Shown: positions 3,798-38,208 of the stretch, one piece after another
Position numbering within the stretch: the first letter of the stretch is position 1
Layout: the number at the start of each line of letters is the position of its first letter
IMG/VR virus record: IMGVR_UViG_3300044798_000207
Span: 1-43,908 of that record
Reading direction: 5' to 3' (one strand)
Length of the DNA stretch: 43,908 nucleotides
Source: a virus
Notes under the pieces: model-generated
Database searches by the model: none
Seen by the model: the letters and a program-made list of their open reading frames with translations, nothing else
What the model was told of the DNA's origin: nothing
Position numbers and translations under genes: made by a program

Positions 3798-4772
3798 ATG
3801 CCAACTCCTACTTTAACCAGTGCAGAATATACACTGGATTCCCTGTACACAACTACCTGGCAGTCTGTTAAAAAGCAGGTTACGGACCAGATATTCAATG
3901 CCACGCCCTTTTTCTACGAGATGTACAAAGGTGAAAACATCGAGCGTGAAGACGGCGGGCGGTATATCGAAGAGCCGTTAATGTACGGGAAAAACGCGAC
4001 AATCGCGTGGATCGACAAAGGCGGAACCATCAGTATTGCCGATACCGATCCTCTGACCACAAGCACGTGGAACTGGCGCAACCTGGCCGGAACCGTTGTG
4101 CGGATGTGGGCTGACGATATGGCAAACTCTGGTATCCACAAGAAAATCGACTTAATGAATGCTAAGATCGAAAATCTGCGGCTTTCATTAATCGACCAGT
4201 TGGAGATTAATCTGTTCACCGCGCAGGCCGGTTCTGCGATGTCGGGGATTCCTGATATTATCCAGGCCGCTCTTCCTGCCGCTCAGTCTTTATCTCCCGG
4301 TGGACTCTCCAAAAGCACCTATCCTTGGTGGAGAAATCAGTATTTTGTCTCCACAGGTTCGTTCGCCGCTTTCGGCAAGTCCGACATGCGAACCATGTAT
4401 AACAACTGCTCCATTGGAAACGATCACCCGAATCTGATCCTAACCGAACAGACCGTGTTCGAATTCTACGAAGCAGAGGCTGAGGACATCCAGAGAATTA
4501 ATGATTCCTCCGCTGCTAACTTGGGCTTCCAGACGTTTCGGTACAAGGGCGCGAATATGTATTACAGCCCTCAGTGCCCGACTGGGTATATATACTTCTT
4601 GAACCTGAAGTATCTAAAGCTCAAAATTGACTCCAAAGCCGATTTCGATATGACCGAATGGAAGGTCATTCCTAATCAACTGGACCGTGTTGCGCAGGTA
4701 GTGTCGAGAATGGAACTTGTGTCCCGTAACAACAGGATGCAGGGGCTCATTGGGGGCATTACGGTTGCGTAA
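3798..4772 (+). CDS. Major capsid protein
   Basis: 324 residues, placed right after the scaffold. It looks like the HK97-fold capsid family of Gram-negative podophages: an N-terminal arm, a helix-rich segment LINxxxIDQLEINLF, a conserved-looking segment HPNLILTEQTVFEFYEAEAE (about 214-233, family usual 'PDLILTTQxxYDxYE') and a C-terminal beta segment ending IGGITVA. No N-terminal protease cleavage site is obvious. It is followed by a 227-nt non-coding stretch with several hairpins, suggesting a separately stabilised abundant message. Confidence 0.85.
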   Translation: MPTPTLTSAEYTLDSLYTTTWQSVKKQVTDQIFNATPFFYEMYKGENIEREDGGRYIEEPLMYGKNATIAWIDKGGTISIADTDPLTTSTWNWRNLAGTVVRMWADDMANSGIHKKIDLMNAKIENLRLSLIDQLEINLFTAQAGSAMSGIPDIIQAALPAAQSLSPGGLSKSTYPWWRNQYFVSTGSFAAFGKSDMRTMYNNCSIGNDHPNLILTEQTVFEFYEAEAEDIQRINDSSAANLGFQTFRYKGANMYYSPQCPTGYIYFLNLKYLKLKIDSKADFDMTEWKVIPNQLDRVAQVVSRMELVSRNNRMQGLIGGITVA

Positions 4773-23821: not shown

Positions 23822-24487
23822 TTAACCACGAAGAACACCTTCTTCGAATTGCTTTATAGCCGCGCGCAGGGCGGCTTGGGGCGGTTTGCTTTTTGGTTCA
23901 TCATCCTTCTCGATGGTCTTTTTGAACAGGCAATTTCCTGCGGTGTGGTAGATTACGACCCCCTCCGGCTTCATAAACCCCGGCGCTGCATAACTCCCAC
24001 TTCCCTCCAAAGCGCTGAGGGCCAAACTAACCACGTCCCACCCGAAGACTCCCACGGCGATCACAGGAACTACGTGGCAGCAAGCAGGCGGTGGTTTGAA
24101 TTCGGGTTTGGGCAATTTGCACCCGTCTCTTTGCCATGCGCCAATCTTAAACCTCTCAAACATTCCTTCATCCCAGCGGGTTACATTGAAAAGGGAAAAC
24201 CGCTTCTCCTTCAACCCATATCCTCGATTAATCCCCTGTCCCCACCATTCGCCAAAATGTAATCCGGGGCCGAGTTTAAAAAGTTCGGTTTCGTTTTCAT
24301 AGGCCCACTTAGCAAAGCCATGATTATCATTACTTGGTGTAATCCATCGAGAGCGAGAACCTACATTGAATGCAGGATAATCGAGCAAGCTAATGCGAAT
24401 ACAACCATTCGTCCCATCTATCTTCTCCGTCAGGATACAATCCCTGGAGAAGCGCGGAATTTTTGGAAACTCAATGAATTCGTTCAT
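23822..24487 (-). CDS. RNA-ligase-like nucleotidyltransferase
   Basis: 221 residues from ATG 24487 (ATGA overlap with the polymerase stop). Motif I is LTEKIDGTNG with the probable adenylated lysine K22; a motif III-like LFNV, motif IV EGVVIY and motif V LFKKT follow in order, matching the RNA_ligase (T4 Rnl2-type) domain. It would seal RNA ends using ATP; DNA nick sealing cannot be excluded but no BRCT or OB extension is seen. Placed between polymerase and DUF3987 ATPase. Confidence 0.7.
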   Translation of the reverse strand: MNEFIEFPKIPRFSRDCILTEKIDGTNGCIRISLLDYPAFNVGSRSRWITPSNDNHGFAKWAYENETELFKLGPGLHFGEWWGQGINRGYGLKEKRFSLFNVTRWDEGMFERFKIGAWQRDGCKLPKPEFKPPPACCHVVPVIAVGVFGWDVVSLALSALEGSGSYAAPGFMKPEGVVIYHTAGNCLFKKTIEKDDEPKSKPPQAALRAAIKQFEEGVLRG

Positions 24488-25671
24488 TTCAACTCCCCCC
24501 AATTCTCTCCCGTCTTGAGTTTAAGTGGTATGACCAGCACTTTGTTGTGAACAACCATCGGTGCGCAAATAGCAAGCTCCGCTGTAACTTTGAACACGTC
24601 CACATATTCCGGTAAGCATTGAGCCAAAAATCCATCGTGTGTTTGAATAAGCAATTCAGGCATAGGATCAAACAGAATTGTACTTGTTTCAAGCATTCCC
24701 ACAATTTCCATTTCCTTACATCCAAACAACCTCACCAGCCCCTGATTCAAATAATCCGCACACGTCGATTGAGGCACAAACGCCAGCATCTTCCTGACCA
24801 GATCCTCGTTAGGGCGACCCAGGAACAAGCGTCTTCTGCCGAGAGGAGTAACCAGTACCCGTTCTCCCGTAGGCCAATTTACAACCTTACCCAACGCATC
24901 AAGTTGAGGGAGAACCTTCGCCCGGATCTCCCGGTGAAAAGCCGGTATTCTTGGAAATCTTTTAAAGTATTGATTCCGAACTTCTTTAAAGATGGCCACA
25001 GAGCATTCGGCAACTTCGGCTCCATGCTTAACTCCGAGGCCATAATGAGTGCCATGAGTAATTCGCTTGCTTTTTCCATACGGCTTATCCGGTGAATTGT
25101 CTTCTTCAATTTCTTCTTCCTTCAGCCCATAAAGCTGACTGGCAATGTATTTATGAATGTTAGCATTGGGATTCTGACAAACCTTCATCAACTCCACTAC
25201 TTCAGCGTTCCAGTAGAATATTCTCGCTTCAGCCTGGCGTAAATCCCCTTCCACCAGGACCATACCCGGATCTGGAATAACGATTTTCCTAAACGCTTCG
25301 GGAAGGTTTTGCTGGTCCGTCCCAGTGTCATCATCAGTCTTGCGAGAAGAAAGCCGCCCAGTATCGGTAACAGTTTGTGAATACTTCGTGTGCATCCTTC
25401 CATCAGGGTCCAAAAGGCTTGGTCCATATTCTGCTCTTTCCTTGTCCGCTTTTCTGTAGTCTTCCAGGGCCTGAATGACCCCGGATTTATCCCGCTTCTT
25501 CAGGGCCTTAATTGCACTCTTACCAGTTGTAATCTTCTTCTTTTTGGTCTTCTTGTCAATGGTAAACTGCTCCGGCATCCCCAAGGTTTCATACAGTAAT
25601 GCAGCAACCTGCTTCGGGGAGTTAGGGTTGACTTCGTTTGAAGGAGATTTTACTTTCTTCGTTCGGGGCAT
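24484..25671 (-). CDS. DNA polymerase, family A: palm/fingers half of a split enzyme
   Basis: 395 residues from ATG 25671, which overlaps the stop of the small gene upstream (TAATG) with GGGAGGAG as site. It begins in the thumb (NPNSPKQVAALLYETLG, about 15-31) and then has TGRLSS (104-109), QNLP (121-124), motif A GDLRQAEAR (142-150; D143, E148), motif B from K202 to YG (210-211) and motif C QTHDG (343-347). Compared with E. coli Pol I, the F762 position is H206 and the motif C Glu (E883) is G347. The exonuclease half is a separate gene (25936..27249). Together they make the phage replicase. Confidence 0.88.
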   Translation of the reverse strand: MPRTKKVKSPSNEVNPNSPKQVAALLYETLGMPEQFTIDKKTKKKKITTGKSAIKALKKRDKSGVIQALEDYRKADKERAEYGPSLLDPDGRMHTKYSQTVTDTGRLSSRKTDDDTGTDQQNLPEAFRKIVIPDPGMVLVEGDLRQAEARIFYWNAEVVELMKVCQNPNANIHKYIASQLYGLKEEEIEEDNSPDKPYGKSKRITHGTHYGLGVKHGAEVAECSVAIFKEVRNQYFKRFPRIPAFHREIRAKVLPQLDALGKVVNWPTGERVLVTPLGRRRLFLGRPNEDLVRKMLAFVPQSTCADYLNQGLVRLFGCKEMEIVGMLETSTILFDPMPELLIQTHDGFLAQCLPEYVDVFKVTAELAICAPMVVHNKVLVIPLKLKTGENWGELK

Positions 25672-25949
25672 TACTCCTCCCATTCGAAAGTAACTTTAAG
25701 TGAGGTATTGGGGGGAATTCCACGCGGAATACAAATGGATTCGGTTGCTGCAAGAAAGCCTTGATTTGAAATTAAATTTATGGTTTTTGTTTTCTTCTCC
25801 CTTACAACCTCCCAATCATCCGCGCATAATTCTTCTTCGGTCCTTGCATAGAGCACGCGCGTTAAGGAGGTCAGCTTTACAAACATGTAACGAGCAGACT
25901 TAATTCTTTGCCCAAACTTTGCTTTCTTGTATGCTTCAATTATGTTCAT
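25671..25949 (-). CDS. DUF2829/Tad2-like small protein between polymerase halves
   Basis: 92 residues. The opening IIEAYKKAKFGQRIKSARY and the segment RTEEELCADDWEVV match the two most recognisable blocks of DUF2829 proteins ('..EAL.AlK.GkrV.R..' and '..lLAeDWev'), but the central part is shorter than usual and a 40-residue extension follows. Some DUF2829 members (Tad2) bind the signal nucleotide of Thoeris defence, so an anti-defence role is possible, not shown. The start overlaps the exonuclease gene by 14 bases. The C-terminus FEWEE encodes the ribosome site of the polymerase gene. Confidence 0.5.
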   Translation of the reverse strand: MNIIEAYKKAKFGQRIKSARYMFVKLTSLTRVLYARTEEELCADDWEVVREKKTKTINLISNQGFLAATESICIPRGIPPNTSLKVTFEWEE

Positions 25950-27249
25950 TTAATTCCTCCTTCTTCGTTAATAGATTCCACTTCTCCTTCGTCATCGTAT
26001 ACTTCTTCGCAACCTCCGCCCTAACCTCCTCCAAAGCTTCCTTGTTAATATTTACTCCTCGATTTCCCATCCCAAACAGGATATGAAACAAAGGCATTTG
26101 GTACTCACGAAAGAACGCCATTAAATTCAACTCCTCCAACTCCAACGCCAACTTCTGCCAAATTTCGGCTGTAACTGAAGCATGAAGAGCATTGTACCTT
26201 CCTCTCTTGTCATCCTCATTCCAACCTTTGGGGTGAAGAATCCCATCAAGGTTACAATAAATCGAAGCCAAGTAACCAAGATCATGGGGAAGCTCTGGAT
26301 ACAGGACGTGGTGGGCAAGCATGGTATCGGCGTACAACCGCCCGACTGGCATACCAATCTTTACCAGCTTGCCCATATCGTACGTTCCGTTTTGGGCAAC
26401 TAATAAATATGAATCCCGTAGTAATTGCCTGACATTTGTTTTAATTTCTTCTTTGCTTGGCCCCTGGTCCAGCGCAATGCTGATACTTGGACCTTCATCA
26501 AGAGCAAAAGCAATACGATCAATCCAAGATCCTTTATTTTCAATATCAAACGCAATGCAACGATGCCGTTGTAACGCCAACCCTTGAAGAAACTCCAAAG
26601 CATAATCATCCTCCCAAATTAACTGGCGTTCCGGGATTTCAAGTCCGCGTGTTTCGCTTTCCCTTTTGGCCTTCTTAATGTCAAGGATAAGCGTAATGCG
26701 CCCAGACCCGTACGTGTATTTAACACCACCTTCCCCTTCGCGTTCCTTTTTAGAAGGTTTGTCTCCCAATCTGAGTATGTAAGCGGGATGGAACGAGCAA
26801 AGTACCTTAACAGGTTCGGAAACCATTGTGAACGGATAAACGATACCTCTATGCTCCGTGATCCCCAACTTTCCAGCAAGAGCCTGCAAGGCAATGTTAC
26901 CCAATCCGAGAACGACATTAGGTTTCCAGAACTTAACCAAATCTTGTATTCCCTCAAAGCACTCCTCCCAGGTTATCCCTGTTTCACTCAGCCTCTCCGC
27001 AATATCCTCCGGGGGCCTTACGGGACTCACATTCGTCACAAAACAATTCTCCCTCTTCACTCCAGCCACAGGTAACACGGCATTTAGAAACCTCCCACTC
27101 TTCCCCACGAACGGCATCCGGGCCTTCTCCTCCTCCTGACCCGGAGCCTCTCCCACTATCCACAACTTTGACTTTGGATTTCCCGACCCCAAGCAGCTTA
27201 TTAGCTTGAGATTCGAGCATTTTTTTATTAGCGTATCGTACTTCTGCAT
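25936..27249 (-). CDS. UDG-like domain fused to 3'-5' exonuclease: N-terminal half of split SPO1-type DNA polymerase
   Basis: 437 residues from ATG 27249 (GAGAGGAGTTCG). Residues 1-165 are a family-4-type uracil-DNA glycosylase fold: GEAPGQEE (33-40), PFVGKSG (46-52), FHPAY (153-157). The four Fe-S cysteines of that family are not conserved (C11 present, others lost). Residues about 228-375 are a DnaQ/Pol I proofreading domain: Exo I FDIE (D235, E237), Exo II NGTYD (287-291), Exo III YNALH (352-356), where His replaces the metal-binding Asp. The tail (380-410) is the first thumb helix. This is the domain order of phage SPO1 polymerase, with the palm half encoded separately at 24484..25671. 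Confidence 0.82.
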   Translation of the reverse strand: MQKYDTLIKKCSNLKLISCLGSGNPKSKLWIVGEAPGQEEEKARMPFVGKSGRFLNAVLPVAGVKRENCFVTNVSPVRPPEDIAERLSETGITWEECFEGIQDLVKFWKPNVVLGLGNIALQALAGKLGITEHRGIVYPFTMVSEPVKVLCSFHPAYILRLGDKPSKKEREGEGGVKYTYGSGRITLILDIKKAKRESETRGLEIPERQLIWEDDYALEFLQGLALQRHRCIAFDIENKGSWIDRIAFALDEGPSISIALDQGPSKEEIKTNVRQLLRDSYLLVAQNGTYDMGKLVKIGMPVGRLYADTMLAHHVLYPELPHDLGYLASIYCNLDGILHPKGWNEDDKRGRYNALHASVTAEIWQKLALELEELNLMAFFREYQMPLFHILFGMGNRGVNINKEALEEVRAEVAKKYTMTKEKWNLLTKKEELNEHN

Positions 27250-27433
27250 CGAACTCCTCTCCACGGAATTGAACTATGGCAAAGCAATGCTCAAGATTGT
27301 GTTCTACGCCCTTCGGGGTCGGAATCTGTTTCTCCACCATCTGGGAGACGGTGTTCAGGTCCAGCAACTCTTGGTTCGTCATGAACTGCTTCTCGATTGC
27401 CAGGTTGATCCACTTCAACCTTTCTGGGGTCAT
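26984..27433 (-). CDS. Hypothetical protein overlapping the polymerase N-terminal gene out of frame
   Basis: 149 residues. ATG 27433 has a canonical AAGGAGGAAGAGC site, so initiation is likely real. The first ~61 codons are unique sequence (TPERLKWINLAIEKQFMTNQ and on); the last ~88 codons lie inside the UDG-exonuclease gene in another frame, with a Gly/Ser-rich stretch and several Cys (CDEC). The functional part may be just the N-terminus. A programmed frameshift into the polymerase frame is possible but no clear slippery site was identified. Confidence 0.45.
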   Translation of the reverse strand: MTPERLKWINLAIEKQFMTNQELLDLNTVSQMVEKQIPTPKGVEHNLEHCFAIVQFRGEEFDAEVRYANKKMLESQANKLLGVGKSKVKVVDSGRGSGSGGGEGPDAVRGEEWEVSKCRVTCGWSEEGELFCDECESRKAPGGYCGEAE

Positions 27434-27626: not shown

Positions 27627-27808
27627 TATAATTCCCTCCTCCTCTTCGTTACGAACTTTTCGATGCGATCTATACTCTCGTCCCGCTCTTCTCCGAGGTC
27701 TCGTGTAAGTATATCAAGTAATTCTCCTAATAGCAAGCGAGTATGTTCGTCTTTTGCCGCTTCTTTTTCCTTTTCTTTGTCGTTCATGTATTGTCTATCA
27801 AGGGTCAT
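27626..27808 (-). CDS. Small charged helical protein (60 aa)
   Basis: 60 residues, highly charged and probably one long helix (NDKEKEKEAAKDEHTRLLLG). ATG 27808 overlaps the previous gene end by 4 bases; its TAG overlaps the next GTG. GGAGCATACACA precedes. Function unknown. Confidence 0.5.
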   Translation of the reverse strand: MTLDRQYMNDKEKEKEAAKDEHTRLLLGELLDILTRDLGEERDESIDRIEKFVTKRRREL

Positions 27809-27999
27809 TGTGTATGCTCCTCTATGCTTGGTAACTCAAACGTCTTGGCAATGAAACAGCGAAAATCACACACCTCCGTACGCTCGAACTCCTTGAGCAA
27901 AACCTCCATCAAAATCTCTTCACTCAAGAATCCAACTCCGGTAAAAACTGCCGGACCGTTTGGTACTGGATAGCTTGTAACGACTGTTAAAACGGGCAT
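27805..27999 (-). CDS. Hypothetical protein (64 aa)
   Basis: 64 residues from ATG 27999 with GTGGAGGAAGT ahead. N-terminal third hydrophobic/beta (MPVLTVVTSYPVPNGPAVF), then an amphipathic helix and a short acidic tail. First gene after the structured RNA region. Not recognised. Confidence 0.5.
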   Translation of the reverse strand: MPVLTVVTSYPVPNGPAVFTGVGFLSEEILMEVLLKEFERTEVCDFRCFIAKTFELPSIEEHTQ

Positions 28000-28020
28000 A
28001 CTTCCTCCACTTTTTCAATT

Positions 28021-28129
28021 GCCCCCGTGCCGGATTTGAACCGGCGTAGCATTTTGTTCTCTAAGGTACTATCCGGTCTTCTCTTAGAGCCATTTATTTC
28101 TGCTGCTCAACCACCACGCCGACGGGGGC
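28021..28129 (-). tRNA. tRNA-like RNA with perfect acceptor and T arm, expanded interior
   Basis: Read on the minus strand, 109 nt: an 8-bp acceptor-type stem GCCCCCGT/ACGGGGGC and directly inside its 3' side a canonical T arm GCCGG-TTCAAAT-CCGGC. The interior is not a normal tRNA: about 32 nt in place of the D arm, a 7-bp stem CTCTAAG/CTTAGAG with a 17-nt loop, and a 13-nt linker. No CCA and no assignable anticodon. It may be a degenerate or intron-bearing tRNA or a tRNA mimic. Treat the isotype as undetermined. Confidence 0.5.
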
Positions 28130-28135
28130 GAAGTT

Positions 28136-28204
28136 GCTTCCGTGGAGAGTACCCTTTACGGCCCACGCTCTCTTTCTACCGCACGCTTTAGGGATCACGG
28201 AAGC
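28136..28204 (-). ncRNA. 69-nt folded RNA element next to the tRNA-like RNA
   Basis: Ends pair perfectly over 9 bp (GCTTCCGTG/CACGGAAGC); inside, CCCT/AGGG and CGG/CCG pairs are possible. It is tRNA-sized but has no T-loop sequence, so it is not a standard tRNA. It ends 6 nt from the 109-nt tRNA-like element, in a 213-nt gap (28000..28212) without a gene in a gene-dense operon. Confidence 0.45.
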
Positions 28205-28212
28205 TTCTTTGT

Positions 28213-28626
28213 CTACTCCTTAATCGGCGTAAGTGCCTGGATCTCATTCTTCGTCACACCTTCATATTCGCTGACCTTCAACTTGCCGATGCAATGCTGC
28301 CCAATGGCCACATCGGTGTCAAACGCCGACCCGCTGCAAGCCATGGGAAAGGCCCTTCGCAGCATGGCCATGAACCCCGTACCTTTGACGGCGTTGTAAT
28401 CCTTGGGGAACTTGCCTTTGTGCACGGACTTCTGTGGGTCCTCGTCGTCGATCTGAAAGGCAACCTTCATGTACCTATTGCCTGTCTTTTCGCTGGTAAA
28501 GAATGGTGTTCCGCTTGCTTCGTCCATCCTGACGGCCACCAACTTTAGCCTATACTTGCCACTGGGAGCAACTCCCAATATCTCCTCTTCTTGTTGCTCT
28601 GTCATCTCTGTATCAACTAACGGCAT
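28213..28626 (-). CDS. Putative ssDNA-binding-type early protein (DUF669-like)
   Basis: 137 residues. ATG 28626 is chosen (GGGAGGTGATTGAGA ahead); an in-frame TTG lies two codons upstream. Pattern APSGKYRLKLVAVRMDE, then MKVAFQIDDEDP, then a helix, resembles DUF669-type proteins that act as phage ssDNA-binding proteins and often lie next to Sak4-type recombinases, as here. No acidic tail typical of SSB is present. The call is tentative. Confidence 0.5.
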   Translation of the reverse strand: MPLVDTEMTEQQEEEILGVAPSGKYRLKLVAVRMDEASGTPFFTSEKTGNRYMKVAFQIDDEDPQKSVHKGKFPKDYNAVKGTGFMAMLRRAFPMACSGSAFDTDVAIGQHCIGKLKVSEYEGVTKNEIQALTPIKE

Positions 28627-28816
28627 TCTCAATCACCTCCCTTTGTTTTTTGCATTCTTCGTCATACGGCCCGTAGATTTCATACAAAACCTGTCCCGTA
28701 GAAACTTCAAGAAGATCCAGCAATGCGTGAGCTTCCTGCGGAGTTTCCAAAACCAGCGTTATTGCCCTGTACGGCGGTAGGTGTCTTGGGACTTCTTGTG
28801 TAAAAGCTCTTGCCAT
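28613..28816 (-). CDS. Hypothetical protein (67 aa)
   Basis: 67 residues from ATG 28816 (GGGAGGATGAA). Two short strands and two amphipathic helices (PPYRAITLVLETPQEAHALL). Ends 14 bases inside the next gene. Not recognised. Confidence 0.5.
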   Translation of the reverse strand: MARAFTQEVPRHLPPYRAITLVLETPQEAHALLDLLEVSTGQVLYEIYGPYDEECKKQREVIENAVS

Positions 28817-32658: not shown

Positions 32659-32740
32659 GGTTTCTCCCTCCTGTTTACTACTTAGCAACTCCCATGCCAA
32701 CAACCTTTGCTGATTTCATTGTGTTTTTTACTTCTCTTGC

Positions 32741-32754
32741 GTTCATTTTTGAAC
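32741..32754. promoter_or_regulatory. Operator-like palindrome GTTCA-N4-TGAAC (site 3)
   Basis: GTTCA-TTTT-TGAAC: same half sites and spacing as the two sites at 35018 and 35065. It lies just after the 35-aa membrane microprotein in the early block. Confidence 0.45.
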
Positions 32755-32755
32755 A

Positions 32756-32863
32756 TTATTGTACAATCTTCGCAATAATATAAATAATCACCCACCACAA
32801 CACAAGCGCCGGAATGATTAAAACCTTAACACAACGCAGACTCATTTTAGGCTTTTGGTTCAT
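32756..32863 (-). CDS. Single-pass membrane microprotein (35 aa)
   Basis: 35 residues from ATG 32863 (AAAGGGGAAAAA). Basic start (MNQKPKMSLRCVK), then one strongly hydrophobic segment (VLIIPALVLWWVIIYIIA). Likely a tiny inner-membrane protein. Two overlapping 22-24 codon frames follow on the minus strand to 32686; they have no ribosome site and are not called. Confidence 0.5.
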   Translation of the reverse strand: MNQKPKMSLRCVKVLIIPALVLWWVIIYIIAKIVQ

Positions 32864-32992
32864 TTTTTCCCCTTTCTAAACTTACTGCGAAGAAATGTAT
32901 CGCTCCTTCTCAAATCCCCTTTAGTTTCAATATGCCGACCTCTGTACAACATGACTTTATTAGAGTTGAGTCTAAAAAAGTCATGCCCATAC

Positions 32993-33307: not shown

Positions 33308-33589
33308 CAACGAGTTAGCCTTTTAGGTGCAAGTTTAGATTTAAACTTCTACAGACGAAAATTGCCTTTTTTCTGTGGAGGCATGTCGAATCATGTCGGT
33401 CGGTGTTGATTTTATTGAGCTTTTTTTCGATCTGTACGAAAATCTGTATGTTTGCGTATATGTATACATACTTATACATCACTTCTCTGCGTATGTTCCT
33501 GCAATCATTCCCTTTTCTTGCTTTTTAAAAGTCCTTAGCAAGTTACTGCTGGTTATTAAGATGGGGACTTTTTGGGAATAAACGGGATT

Positions 33590-33718
33590 TTATTTTGCTT
33601 GGTAGCGAACAATATATTCAAAACCTCTAAATATAAGTTCTGTTTTAACTCCTTGTTTTCTTAACTTGCGAATTACCTTTAAAGCTTCCCTTTTACTTTT
33701 AAATGCAATTCCTATCAT
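33590..33718 (-). CDS. Basic microprotein (42 aa)
   Basis: 42 residues from ATG 33718 (GGGAGGTAAAAGGAAA). MIGIAFKSKREALKVIRKLR and then beta strands; very basic, alpha/beta, perhaps nucleic-acid binding. Not recognised. Confidence 0.55.
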   Translation of the reverse strand: MIGIAFKSKREALKVIRKLRKQGVKTELIFRGFEYIVRYQAK

Positions 33719-33736
33719 TTTCCTTTTACCTCCCTT

Positions 33737-34357: not shown

Positions 34358-34624
34358 TTAAATAAACTCTGCTTTGACTTCCTGTTCTGTTAGTAATATG
34401 CTTTCTTGCTCATTAAACAGTTTTATATCCTGACAGAGTGCTTTGATGTCATTCGCGTTCTCAATGGTATTCTCTACCAAGAGCTCAATAACAATCCCAT
34501 CTTCTTGCTTTCCTTCCCAATAGCCAGTAGTTTCGTAGATTGTAAATCCTTTAAAGCTTCTACTTACTTCCTTTTCAAGCTTCCTTCGATTTTTATTCTC
34601 TGTGTAAATCCGATACAGTTTCAT
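34358..34624 (-). CDS. Conserved-type early protein (88 aa)
   Basis: 88 residues from ATG 34624 (GGGAGAATAAAACC). MKLYRIYTENKNRRKLEKEV, then FTIYETTGYWEGKQEDGIVI is typical of a small conserved phage protein with a ferredoxin-like beta-alpha-beta layout. The region just upstream holds a TATAAT-rich inverted repeat that may be its promoter. Function unknown. Confidence 0.6.
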   Translation of the reverse strand: MKLYRIYTENKNRRKLEKEVSRSFKGFTIYETTGYWEGKQEDGIVIELLVENTIENANDIKALCQDIKLFNEQESILLTEQEVKAEFI

Positions 34625-36648: not shown

Positions 36649-36667
36649 TAAGCTGGTTACGAAATGA
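36575..36667 (+). CDS. Zinc-ribbon microprotein nested between terminase genes (30 aa)
   Basis: 30 residues from GTG 36575, with an excellent AAGGAGAGATGCC site. CPRC (3-6) and CRNC (21-24) define a complete minimal zinc ribbon with basic surroundings. It lies mostly inside the 53-aa gene in a different frame, and its stop overlaps the large terminase start (ATGA), so it probably couples terminase translation. Confidence 0.65.
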   Translation: MKCPRCGSKKFNRLGNKLFKCRNCSKLVTK

Positions 36668-38208
36668 ATCTTGAGGAGGTCCGACAGGCGTTTGCCAAAT
36701 TGGGAAGAGATAATCTCTACTTCCTTACCCGTGCAATCCTGTATCCTCCCCGGACTTCCTCCAGACCCCCATTTGTATACAACGATCAATTGCACAGAGA
36801 GCTTACGGGCGTACTGGAAGATCCGAACTTTACCAAGAAGCTGATCCTGGTTCCCCGTGGGCATTTCAAGACTACTTTAATCAAAGCTTGGGCAATTCAA
36901 CGAGTATTGCGGAATCCAGAAGAACGAATATTATTCCTGTCGGGTTCAGATTTAAACCCGAAAAGATCCGTACAGCACATTGAATCGGTGTTCGAAAAAA
37001 ATGCTTTGTTTAGATGGTTGTATCCAGAAATAATTCCAGACTTCAACTCTACAACCTGGTCGAAGACTGAAGCTACCATTAAACGAAAGCAAAGTTGGCC
37101 TGAGCCCACGTTTGACTCTGCTGGTTTTGGTACTATGCTTCCGGGCAGACACTATAGTGCTCTCGTCAAGGATGACATTGTAAATGATAAGAATTCCGCT
37201 ACTCCCGAACTTGAAGACCAGGTTATTGAATGGGATGCTTCAACTGTTCCTCTATTTGACTCCCCTGAAGATCCCGCGAATACTGAGATCGTCATTGGTA
37301 CGCCATGGACCCATACGGATGCGTACGCTGTAAAGAGAAGGGACCCGGACTTTGCGCTCTATGTTCGGCACGCTTTGGAGACAGAAGGGAAGCCCGATTA
37401 TGATAATGGACAGCCGATATTTCCTGAACGATTTACCAAAGAGAGAATCTACAGAATCCGAAAGCGTCTGGAAAACGATGATCTGTTCTTCTGTCAATAT
37501 ATGTGCGACCCTCACGGCGGTGGGTCAGGCGACTTCCAACGGGATTATATTCAATACTATGAAGAAACGCCGAAGCAATTGGCAATCAGCGTAACAATCG
37601 ACCCTGGAGGATTGCGGGCGCATTCGGATAGCGCAGCGTTTACGGTTGTGGGAGTTGATCCGAATAACGATTGGTATGTATTGCTGGCTTACAAACGCCG
37701 GATGAATCCCCGTGAACAGATTGAAGAACTGTTTAATATTTATGAACAGTACCCAACCGTGCACACGATTGGAATAGAAACAGTTGCTTGGCAGAAGGCT
37801 CTGAAGTTCTTCGCTGAAGAGGAAATGAGAAAACGGGGCACGTTCCTTCCAATAAAGGAACTCCGAACCGATACAAGAGTATCAAAACCTATGCGTATAC
37901 GTGGGCTGATTCCCCGGTTTAGTAACCGCACAGTATTCACGAAAAAACACATGACAGCGCTGGAGGATGAGCTTTTCTGCCGAGTAAAATCAGATGACTT
38001 AAAGGATGCGCTGGCGTATCAGTTGCAAGTGGCGACTTTTAGGCCAGTAATTCGCCCAGCCCATGTGGTGAATCCTTTTTCCATCGAGGCAGTCTTGGCA
38101 GAGTTGGCTCACAGGAAGTTGGGGGAGAATACAATCGAGAAGCATTTGGTGGATACCTTTTATTCAGATCCACGGAATACATTTAAACAGTTACAGGAGG
38201 CAAATTAA
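36664..38208 (+). CDS. Terminase large subunit
   Basis: 514 residues. ATPase: Walker A variant PRGHFKT (64-70), Walker B YSALVKDD (about 164-171), then a coupling segment IVIGTPWTHTDAY. Nuclease: SVTIDPGG (D near 304) with later acidic positions GIETVAW (about 366-372) and DDLKDALAYQ (about 444-453), the RNase H-like metal triad. It pumps DNA into the procapsid through the portal and cuts concatemers. ATGA overlap with the zinc microgene and TAATG overlap with the next gene. Confidence 0.93.
   Translation: MNLEEVRQAFAKLGRDNLYFLTRAILYPPRTSSRPPFVYNDQLHRELTGVLEDPNFTKKLILVPRGHFKTTLIKAWAIQRVLRNPEERILFLSGSDLNPKRSVQHIESVFEKNALFRWLYPEIIPDFNSTTWSKTEATIKRKQSWPEPTFDSAGFGTMLPGRHYSALVKDDIVNDKNSATPELEDQVIEWDASTVPLFDSPEDPANTEIVIGTPWTHTDAYAVKRRDPDFALYVRHALETEGKPDYDNGQPIFPERFTKERIYRIRKRLENDDLFFCQYMCDPHGGGSGDFQRDYIQYYEETPKQLAISVTIDPGGLRAHSDSAAFTVVGVDPNNDWYVLLAYKRRMNPREQIEELFNIYEQYPTVHTIGIETVAWQKALKFFAEEEMRKRGTFLPIKELRTDTRVSKPMRIRGLIPRFSNRTVFTKKHMTALEDELFCRVKSDDLKDALAYQLQVATFRPVIRPAHVVNPFSIEAVLAELAHRKLGENTIEKHLVDTFYSDPRNTFKQLQEAN

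Follow-up and report, generated by a model that had tools for sequence, protein, structure and literature searches.

The locus and its setting

The virus record analysed here (hereafter the window, i.e., the whole stretch of 43,908 bases) is probably a closed genome because its first and last 100 bases have about 70 bases in common. On the plus strand, profile matches identify a major head protein (3798-4772) and a terminase (36664-38208), and a partial match points to a portal protein (81-1892). Replication genes form an operon on the minus strand: nuclease, ATPase, UDG-exonuclease, polymerase, RNA ligase and primase-like. In this operon, 213 nt (28000-28212) separate two minus-strand genes without family match: an upstream gene (28213-28632; 139 aa counted from the first TTG), whose product is perhaps an ssDNA-binding protein given its place among replication genes, and a downstream gene of 64 aa (27805-27999). 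The initial annotation described two folded, tRNA-sized elements in this gap of an otherwise gapless operon, and both elements were indeed placed within 28000-28212. The description of the operon holds from 30308 down to 20449, since the 18 other junctions are all spaced by at most 27 nt (for the ORFs as chosen), but not farther upstream, where there are gaps of 89, 91, 100, 206 and 254 nt and the choice of genes is less certain. Between the chosen ORFs, the 206- and 254-nt gaps correspond to 32704-32909 and 33483-33736, both upstream in the minus-strand operon. No intrinsic terminator was matched on the minus strand between 27200 and 29600.

ARAGORN calls only a tRNA-Ala, with an encoded CCA, and a tRNA-Met in the window, both at 35.6 kb. 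The RNA ligase gene (23822-24502; Pfam PF09414, phrog_548) has neither a PDB-sequence match nor an NCBIfam match, so a role in tRNA repair is unsupported. An 88-aa ORF (34358-34624) matches DUF3574 above the Pfam cut-off and S-AdoMet lyase below threshold; it and the RNA ligase gene are possible counter-defence genes. In the window, two genes share the family A DNA polymerase between them (24484-27264): one has UDG and 3'-5' exonuclease domains (25936-27264), the other the polymerase domain (24484-25683), and a 92-aa ORF in between overlaps both. Record MW202554 likewise has two adjoining polymerase genes. In the same record (L004, 32005-34542) the terminase large subunit gene appears by eye to be interrupted by an intein: a first gene with an intein-like ...VVSGYLSRNC stretch is followed by a second 'terminase large subunit' gene.

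Anatomy of the gap

Defined parts take up the whole gap. Reading along the minus strand from the stop codon of the upstream gene, there are 8 nt (ACAAAGAA), element 2, the linker AACTTC, element 1 and a leader (AATTGAAAAAGTGGAGGAAGT) that runs into the ATG at 27999. Element 2 (28136-28204, 69 nt) is closed by a perfect 9-bp stem (GCTTCCGTG/CACGGAAGC, 9/9 pairs). The 6-nt linker (28130-28135) forms a single-stranded 5' leader to the acceptor of element 1, and an RNase P cut is predicted at its 3' end. Element 1 (28021-28129, 109 nt) has an 8-bp acceptor whose 5' strand (GCCCCCGT, 28122-28129) and 3' strand (ACGGGGGC, 28021-28028) pair at 8/8 positions and lie 93 nt apart. Its T arm (GCCGG-TTCAAAT-CCGGC, 28029-28045; 5/5 pairs in the stem) stacks directly on the acceptor, giving 13 stacked pairs by sequence. 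These dimensions agree to the base with those first reported for both elements (109 nt with a perfect 8-bp acceptor and canonical T arm for the one and, 6 nt away, 69 nt with a perfect closing stem of 9 bp for the other). The interior of element 1 is known from folding: a middle arm (28059-28089) with a 7-bp stem (CTCTAAG/CTTAGAG) and a 17-nt loop (AGAAGACCGGATAGTAC), and a weak, doubtful D-like hairpin (28108-28121) with G-U in two of four pairs. The 21-nt leader (28000-28020) carries the ribosome-binding GGAGG and lies directly before the start codon.

Element 1 beyond chance

We used a strict descriptor (exact 8-bp acceptor, exact 5-bp T stem, TTCRANN loop), which matches once in the window, at element 1, and once over 300 dinucleotide-shuffled windows; with the acceptor relaxed to 7 bp, the 300 shuffled windows give 2 matches. 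Scanning with it revealed no second T-arm/acceptor element elsewhere in the window. The folding-energy signal of the gap elements is modest: z is -2.20 for element 1 (7/200 shuffles as good), -1.34 for element 1 with its 3' leader (16/200), -2.04 for element 2 (5/200) and -1.28 for the whole gap (21/200). Since its tRNA-like geometry is rare in shuffled sequence, element 1 is beyond chance by that geometry. Closed stems of this strength located 2-12 nt before the acceptor, where that of element 2 lies, arose in 6/300 shuffles, and element 2 is only suggestive on its own.

Known RNA classes

Element 1 shares with tRNAs an acceptor stacked on a T arm with a TTCRANN loop. With default settings, ARAGORN calls no tRNA on it; runs with introns or low thresholds gave, among the output listed, only poor and implausible folds. 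An anticodon arm was looked for as a hairpin of at least four pairs with a 7-nt loop, and in element 1 the T arm alone fits that description. The interior is expanded and non-cloverleaf, as had been claimed. No Rfam family reaches its threshold in the 213-nt gap, and the covariance search that had been suggested stayed below threshold, matching 18 nt of the T arm alone (13.2 bits; gathering score, 29). There is no encoded 3' CCA, the acceptor being followed by AATTG.

The tmRNA mode of ARAGORN and Rfam give no tmRNA call for element 1, and a tmRNA-like tag frame read by eye in the window was dropped for want of such a match. For tRNA-Sec, there is no Rfam match up to an E-value of 10 and no UCA anticodon arm. 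We did not file element 1 as tRNA, tmRNA or tRNA-Sec because defining features were looked for and are lacking. Among the features of RNase P substrates, the coaxial acceptor/T-arm helix and the single-stranded 5' leader are both present, and the 3' RCCA contact is absent. Element 1 appears to keep the parts recognised by tRNA-maturing enzymes without a recognisable anticodon.

Search for homologues

DNA-similarity and flanking-gene searches of viral loci, phages and plasmids returned no alignable homologue of element 1. The upstream gene and the ATPase retrieved nothing, the polymerase retrieved two viral loci at 28-29 percent, and a terminase motif pattern had no match. At the DNA level, element 1 has only short matches in phages and plasmids (at most 27 percent of the query). 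Four of these were inspected and set aside: three are ordinary tRNAs (L100-L102) and one is a T-arm minihelix (L099). Element 2 also has only short matches (23 nt among those listed), most of which fall within genes, such as tail-fibre genes. A pattern combining D arm and T arm matched 8 stretches, with an ARAGORN tRNA at or beside the match in 7/8 and one uncalled (L095). Because no homologue of element 1 was found, the stems of the window have no covariation of their own. The element can be likened to those of other phages by kind, place and anatomy, with no alignable sequence.

Some smaller structures were seen on the way. The minihelix of Microbacterium phage Appa (L099, about 1185-1228) is by eye an unannotated acceptor plus T arm with no other arms, lying between two genes. 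Another small minihelix (L120, 1779-1822) has one extra hairpin, and a third (L183, 7925-7968) is 44 nt long.

RNAs of the same kind at terminase-related loci

We considered as being of the same kind the elements with T arm and acceptor whose interior is unrecognised by ARAGORN. In 80 IMG/VR loci fetched by terminase similarity alone (24-34 percent identity; 931 kb), there are five such elements (L044, L058, L061, L075 and L079) and six ARAGORN tRNAs; the strict scan found none in the other 75/80 loci, many of them fragments. A wider set, which includes the window, comprises 102 sequences (1.17 Mb), of which 12 (L091-L102) were fetched by T-arm patterns or T-arm similarity. It has 8 elements outside ARAGORN tRNAs, two of them (L094, L098) from the T-arm-fetched sequences, against 2, 0, 0, 0, 1, 1, 0 and 1 in eight shuffled sets (mean 0.6). 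The T-arm motif was also sought in 26 records behind the terminase loci: it occurs in 13/26 records at 22 places, 12 of which have a T stem of at least four pairs. ARAGORN was applied to 12/22 of these places, and two odd elements were newly found (L134 and L142). The latter is a second element of the phage that carries the L107 element, and by eye it has a GCAA tetraloop at the position of the anticodon loop.

The location of these elements recurs. Those of L058, L061, L075 and L079 are on the strand opposite to the terminase, about 8.0, 6.6, 3.3 and 7.9 kb upstream of it, and that of the window is likewise on the opposite strand, 8.5 kb upstream. The L044 element, also 3.3 kb upstream, shares the strand of the terminase and seems nearer to an ordinary tRNA. 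A flanking gene is common to L058, L061 and L079 (55-66 percent pairwise). Scanning with it recovered these contigs, numbered L103, L106 and L105, respectively, and also L104, L107 and L108; the L104 element is that of L106. No element was found in the corresponding gap of L068, which has a more distant copy of the gene, nor by strict scan in MW202554, which has polymerase, primase and terminase genes in common with the window.

In the L103-L107 clade, only 0-1 nt separate the 7-bp acceptor from a first hairpin, where a two-base linker would be usual; the middle arm and the T arm follow. The odd elements of L103, L105, L106, L107 and L075 have no Rfam match up to an E-value of 1. The middle arms of L105 and L107 carry the identical loop TACGGCCATC on unrelated stems; this loop is also that of Erwinia phage Faunus, again within a different stem, and is absent from the middle arm of the window. 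In L108, the slot of the L105/L107 odd element is taken by a tRNA-Tyr called by ARAGORN, for which Rfam has only a sub-threshold tRNA-Sec match (35.9 bits against a gathering score of 47). It stands behind the same upstream stem-closed block, with a 4-nt linker. The closing stem of this block shows one compensatory pair among L105, L107 and L108 (TAGG/CCTA to CAGG/CCTG). The block ends 4-5 nt before the acceptor in these three, as compared with 6 nt for element 2. It resembles element 2 by position and, in L105 and L108, also by its nine-pair closing stem (there with one bulge), a likeness that need not reflect homology. Such a neighbour is not general among like elements: in a test of the upstream stem over 12 regions, an equally strong stem arose in 6 of 300 shuffles for the window, 7 for L107 (from a different stem, outside the shared block), 28 for L105 and 36 for L108, and in at least 82 for the other 8.

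Elements in cultivated Chaseviridae

A pattern combining TACGGCCATC with a T arm matched 7 stretches of viral contigs, including three odd tRNA-like RNAs (two already known and a new one, in Faunus) and one ordinary tRNA-Thr. In bacterial and archaeal genomes the same pattern matched 35 stretches, all of which lack a long odd interior; two are at ARAGORN tRNAs and one is the 44-nt minihelix of L183. Faunus (L116) and E. coli phage 4HA13 are both cultivated members of the Chaseviridae. By strict scan, Faunus has four plus-strand elements in a gene-free stretch (11.57-12.63 kb). A fifth match, on the minus strand and away from this stretch, seems fortuitous. Among the four elements, one is just above the Rfam tRNA threshold (31.1 bits, gathering score 29) and is uncalled by ARAGORN. 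E. coli phage 4HA13 has one element by strict scan and two by relaxed scan. Where Faunus and 4HA13 elements have this interior, their first hairpin begins 3-4 nt after the acceptor, and one element of each phage ends in ACCA.

The gene-free block of Faunus matched 212 phage records. Among the 50 matches listed, two short stretches of the block (L116 1475-1577 and 1736-1826) reappear in phages that are not related, and the second of them is there next to tRNA genes. Where these stretches recur, annotations are absent or consist of small ORFs, tRNA-OTHER, tRNA-Phe or tRNA-Ser, and we regard the stretches as candidate mobile RNA modules. On the minus strand of the same locus (1886-2140), a hypothetical protein is annotated antisense to the tRNA-like RNA at 2042-2138 and is probably spurious. 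A near-invariant stretch of about 35 nt (GCCTCGCAGTTTTCAGTCTGCGTTATCAAAACTG in PP101) lies upstream of or near the tRNA-like slot in 6/6 aligned phages (L116-L121); by eye, it could fold as an H-type pseudoknot.

Compensatory changes and possible pairing with the upstream element

We compared 12 acceptor and T-stem pairs in each comparison and counted the double changes that keep pairing. There are three between L105 and L107 (with one pair broken), two between L103 and L106, one between Faunus and PP101 (plus one one-sided change), one between PP101 and 4HA13 (plus two one-sided), and none between Faunus and 4HA13 (one one-sided). The T stem of L107 has 4/5 pairs and the T loop of PP101 is changed. 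Only L107, PP101 and 4HA13, found via sequence or context, are free tests of covariation, because most of the others were selected for pairing (L103, L105, L106, L075 and Faunus were found via pairing criteria). The initial annotation had made its case depend on compensatory changes in relatives; among elements of the same kind, these are present in both the acceptor and the T stems.

In the window, the upstream element (28136-28204) can pair with the loop of the middle arm (28059-28089) at 9/10 positions, which we note as an observation without taking it as evidence for a mechanism. We compared this pairing with 500 shuffles in each of 7 cases. It was equalled in 30/500 shuffles for the window, 0/500 for L105 (12 pairs with one bulge) and 5/500 for 4HA13 (L118; 8 pairs), and it was not notable in Faunus (119), L107 (324), L106 (442) and L103 (496 of 500).

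A proposed processing signal in the operon

RNase P, the 3' processing enzymes and the CCA enzymes read the acceptor and T arm of tRNAs. Since the enzyme-read parts are preserved in element 1 and the decoding part appears to be lost, we regard it as a putative hook for tRNA maturation. The reading we favour, though at slightly less than even odds, is that it is a non-decoding tRNA-like RNA kept for these enzymes, above all RNase P, which would punctuate the operon while element 2 shields the upstream mRNA end. This reading builds on the anatomy of the gap, the absence of a callable tRNA, the phage RNAs of the same kind with their compensatory acceptor and T-stem changes, and the ARAGORN tRNA in the slot of one relative. 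Transcription of the gap, cutting by RNase P, stabilisation of the product and lack of decoding are predicted. The early transcript would be cut on both sides of the acceptor, by host RNase P at the 5' end and by a 3' tRNA-processing nuclease at the 3' end, which would free a small stable RNA, possibly with a further role, and split the operon. The upstream message would then end a few bases past the strong stem of element 2, shielded from 3'-5' exonucleases, and the downstream message would begin about 20 nt before the start codon with its ribosome-binding site intact. We prefer processing, i.e., punctuation with protection of the upstream mRNA end, because the gap is wholly used between the stop codon and the ribosome-binding site. 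Among the roles initially suggested, a processing signal is the one that, as a prediction, fits the anatomy best. Against it stands the lack of CCA at element 1, which the phage does encode in its own tRNA-Ala: according to reviews of its substrates (PMC4919922, PMC11143913), RNase P cutting is favoured by a 3' CCA, and T4 has tRNA precursors that lack CCA and are cut more efficiently when it is present.

Punctuation alone leaves unexplained the 109-nt interior and the loop TACGGCCATC of L105, L107 and Faunus. For this reason, the main rival is that element 1 is a mimic or decoy that occupies a host factor or a tRNA-reading defence enzyme, with the large middle arm as bait; the targets could be anticodon nucleases, other tRNA-cleaving toxins, EF-Tu or modification enzymes. 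We regard this as possible but rather doubtful. A tRNA mimic in the sense of an acceptor and T arm without decoding parts, as initially proposed, is supported by the anatomy and strengthened by the phage elements of the same kind with compensatory changes. This rival is also favoured by the constancy of the loop while the stem around it differs, the ACCA ends of one 4HA13 and one Faunus element, the 88-aa ORF with its sub-threshold S-AdoMet-lyase match (its DUF3574 match passes the cut-off), and the RNA ligase gene in the same early operon. This last gene is the only positive sign for the more specific idea of a decoy for anticodon nucleases, and it matches neither PDB sequences nor NCBIfam; the interior of the window element, having neither an anticodon-like 7-nt hairpin nor the loop TACGGCCATC, argues against a mimic or decoy role.

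It is unlikely that element 1 is a degenerate tRNA gene, drifting without current function. The tRNA-like acceptor and T arm and the tRNA-Tyr in the equivalent slot of L108 would be expected of such a relic. Decay is hard to reconcile with an acceptor paired at 8/8 positions and a T stem at 5/5, with compensatory changes between homologous pairs of like elements, and with the presence of the same kind of RNA in distantly related phages. An odd tRNA that still decodes, with a small intron, a wide anticodon arm or a selenocysteine-like 8/5 branch, is quite improbable: bacterial tRNA-Sec does combine an 8-bp acceptor with a 5-bp T stem, as element 1 does, but the ARAGORN runs described above yielded implausible folds or, in tmRNA mode, nothing among the output listed, and Rfam sees the T arm only and no tRNA-Sec. 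Chance folding of a gene-free spacer would agree with the unexceptional energy of the whole gap (z of -1.28) and is very improbable given the descriptor tests on the window and on the 102-sequence set, each against shuffles, and given a gap without spare sequence. The tRNA piece usually borne by attP sites is the T arm with the 3' acceptor strand, both present in element 1. Integration leaves tRNA fragments (PMC9897764), and yet an attP site carrying the 3' half of a host tRNA is extremely improbable here, as element 1 has its two acceptor strands, with 93 nt between them, no integrase was named among the ORFs scanned (39 with Pfam, 19 with PHROGs, a subset of those in the window) and the element lies inside the replication operon.

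A possible wider set of phage RNAs

Beyond the processing role preferred for the window, we tentatively suggest that many tailed phages might carry unannotated anticodon-less tRNA-like RNAs, often with an upstream structured partner that in some cases can pair with the middle-arm loop. These RNAs would be made by host tRNA-maturation enzymes and act as processing cassettes of operons, as mimics occupying tRNA-reading host factors, or as both; the window would be an early-operon member with its own interior. The annotation of phage tRNAs depends on cloverleaf finders, and these RNAs are passed over. At the 80 terminase-related loci they are about as numerous as ARAGORN tRNAs (five and six), and 4HA13, in whose genome no tRNA genes are present according to a statement in its paper (PMC9699118), yet has the elements described above. 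No account of such RNAs turned up in the open-access literature searched. If they are processed by RNase P, phages cut operons by tRNA punctuation; if they are mimics, they are candidates for RNA counter-defence.

Comparison with known systems

Like the tRNAs of RF00005, element 1 stacks its acceptor on a T arm whose loop is TTCAAAT; it differs from them by its 8-bp acceptor, its 109 nt, its lack of an encoded CCA and of any D or anticodon arm that can be called, and its score below the gathering threshold. It shares an extended acceptor branch with tRNA-Sec and allo-tRNAs. Element 1 differs from both groups in being 8/5 without an anticodon arm, allo-tRNAs being 8/4 or 9/3.

The closest likeness in anatomy is to the phage RNAs of the same kind. 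Those of Chaseviridae and of L058, L061, L075, L079 and L107 have, as in the window, an acceptor and T arm, a hairpin 0-4 nt after the acceptor and a location in a gene-free gap, and all except that of L075 have a long middle arm. The position on the opposite strand, 3-8 kb upstream of the terminase, is shared by L058, L061, L075 and L079. They differ from the window in their 7-bp acceptors, in the ACCA that some encode and, for L105, L107 and Faunus, in the loop TACGGCCATC.

Several tRNA-like RNAs are cut within longer transcripts. In MALAT1, a protective fold lies just upstream of the tRNA-like element. The reviews cited above list mRNAs, phage M3 and C4 RNAs, t-elements and MALAT1 as RNase P substrates (PMC4919922, PMC11143913). 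M3 and C4 RNA are phage small RNAs, as are the tRNA-like molecules of T-even phages, which are mentioned in the title of a reference; M3 and the T-even molecules are likened to element 1 by description, and no Rfam family reached its threshold in the gap of the window. Plant mitochondrial t-elements and MALAT1/mascRNA, as described there, are similar in that a tRNA-like element within a longer transcript is cut there by RNase P (and, in MALAT1, also by RNase Z). They are eukaryotic or organellar, whereas the cutting at element 1 is predicted and the fold upstream of it is closed by a stem, not by a triple helix. By analogy, element 1 may work like these tRNA-like substrates of RNase P (t-elements, MALAT1, phage M3 and C4 RNA), with predicted cutting at its acceptor.
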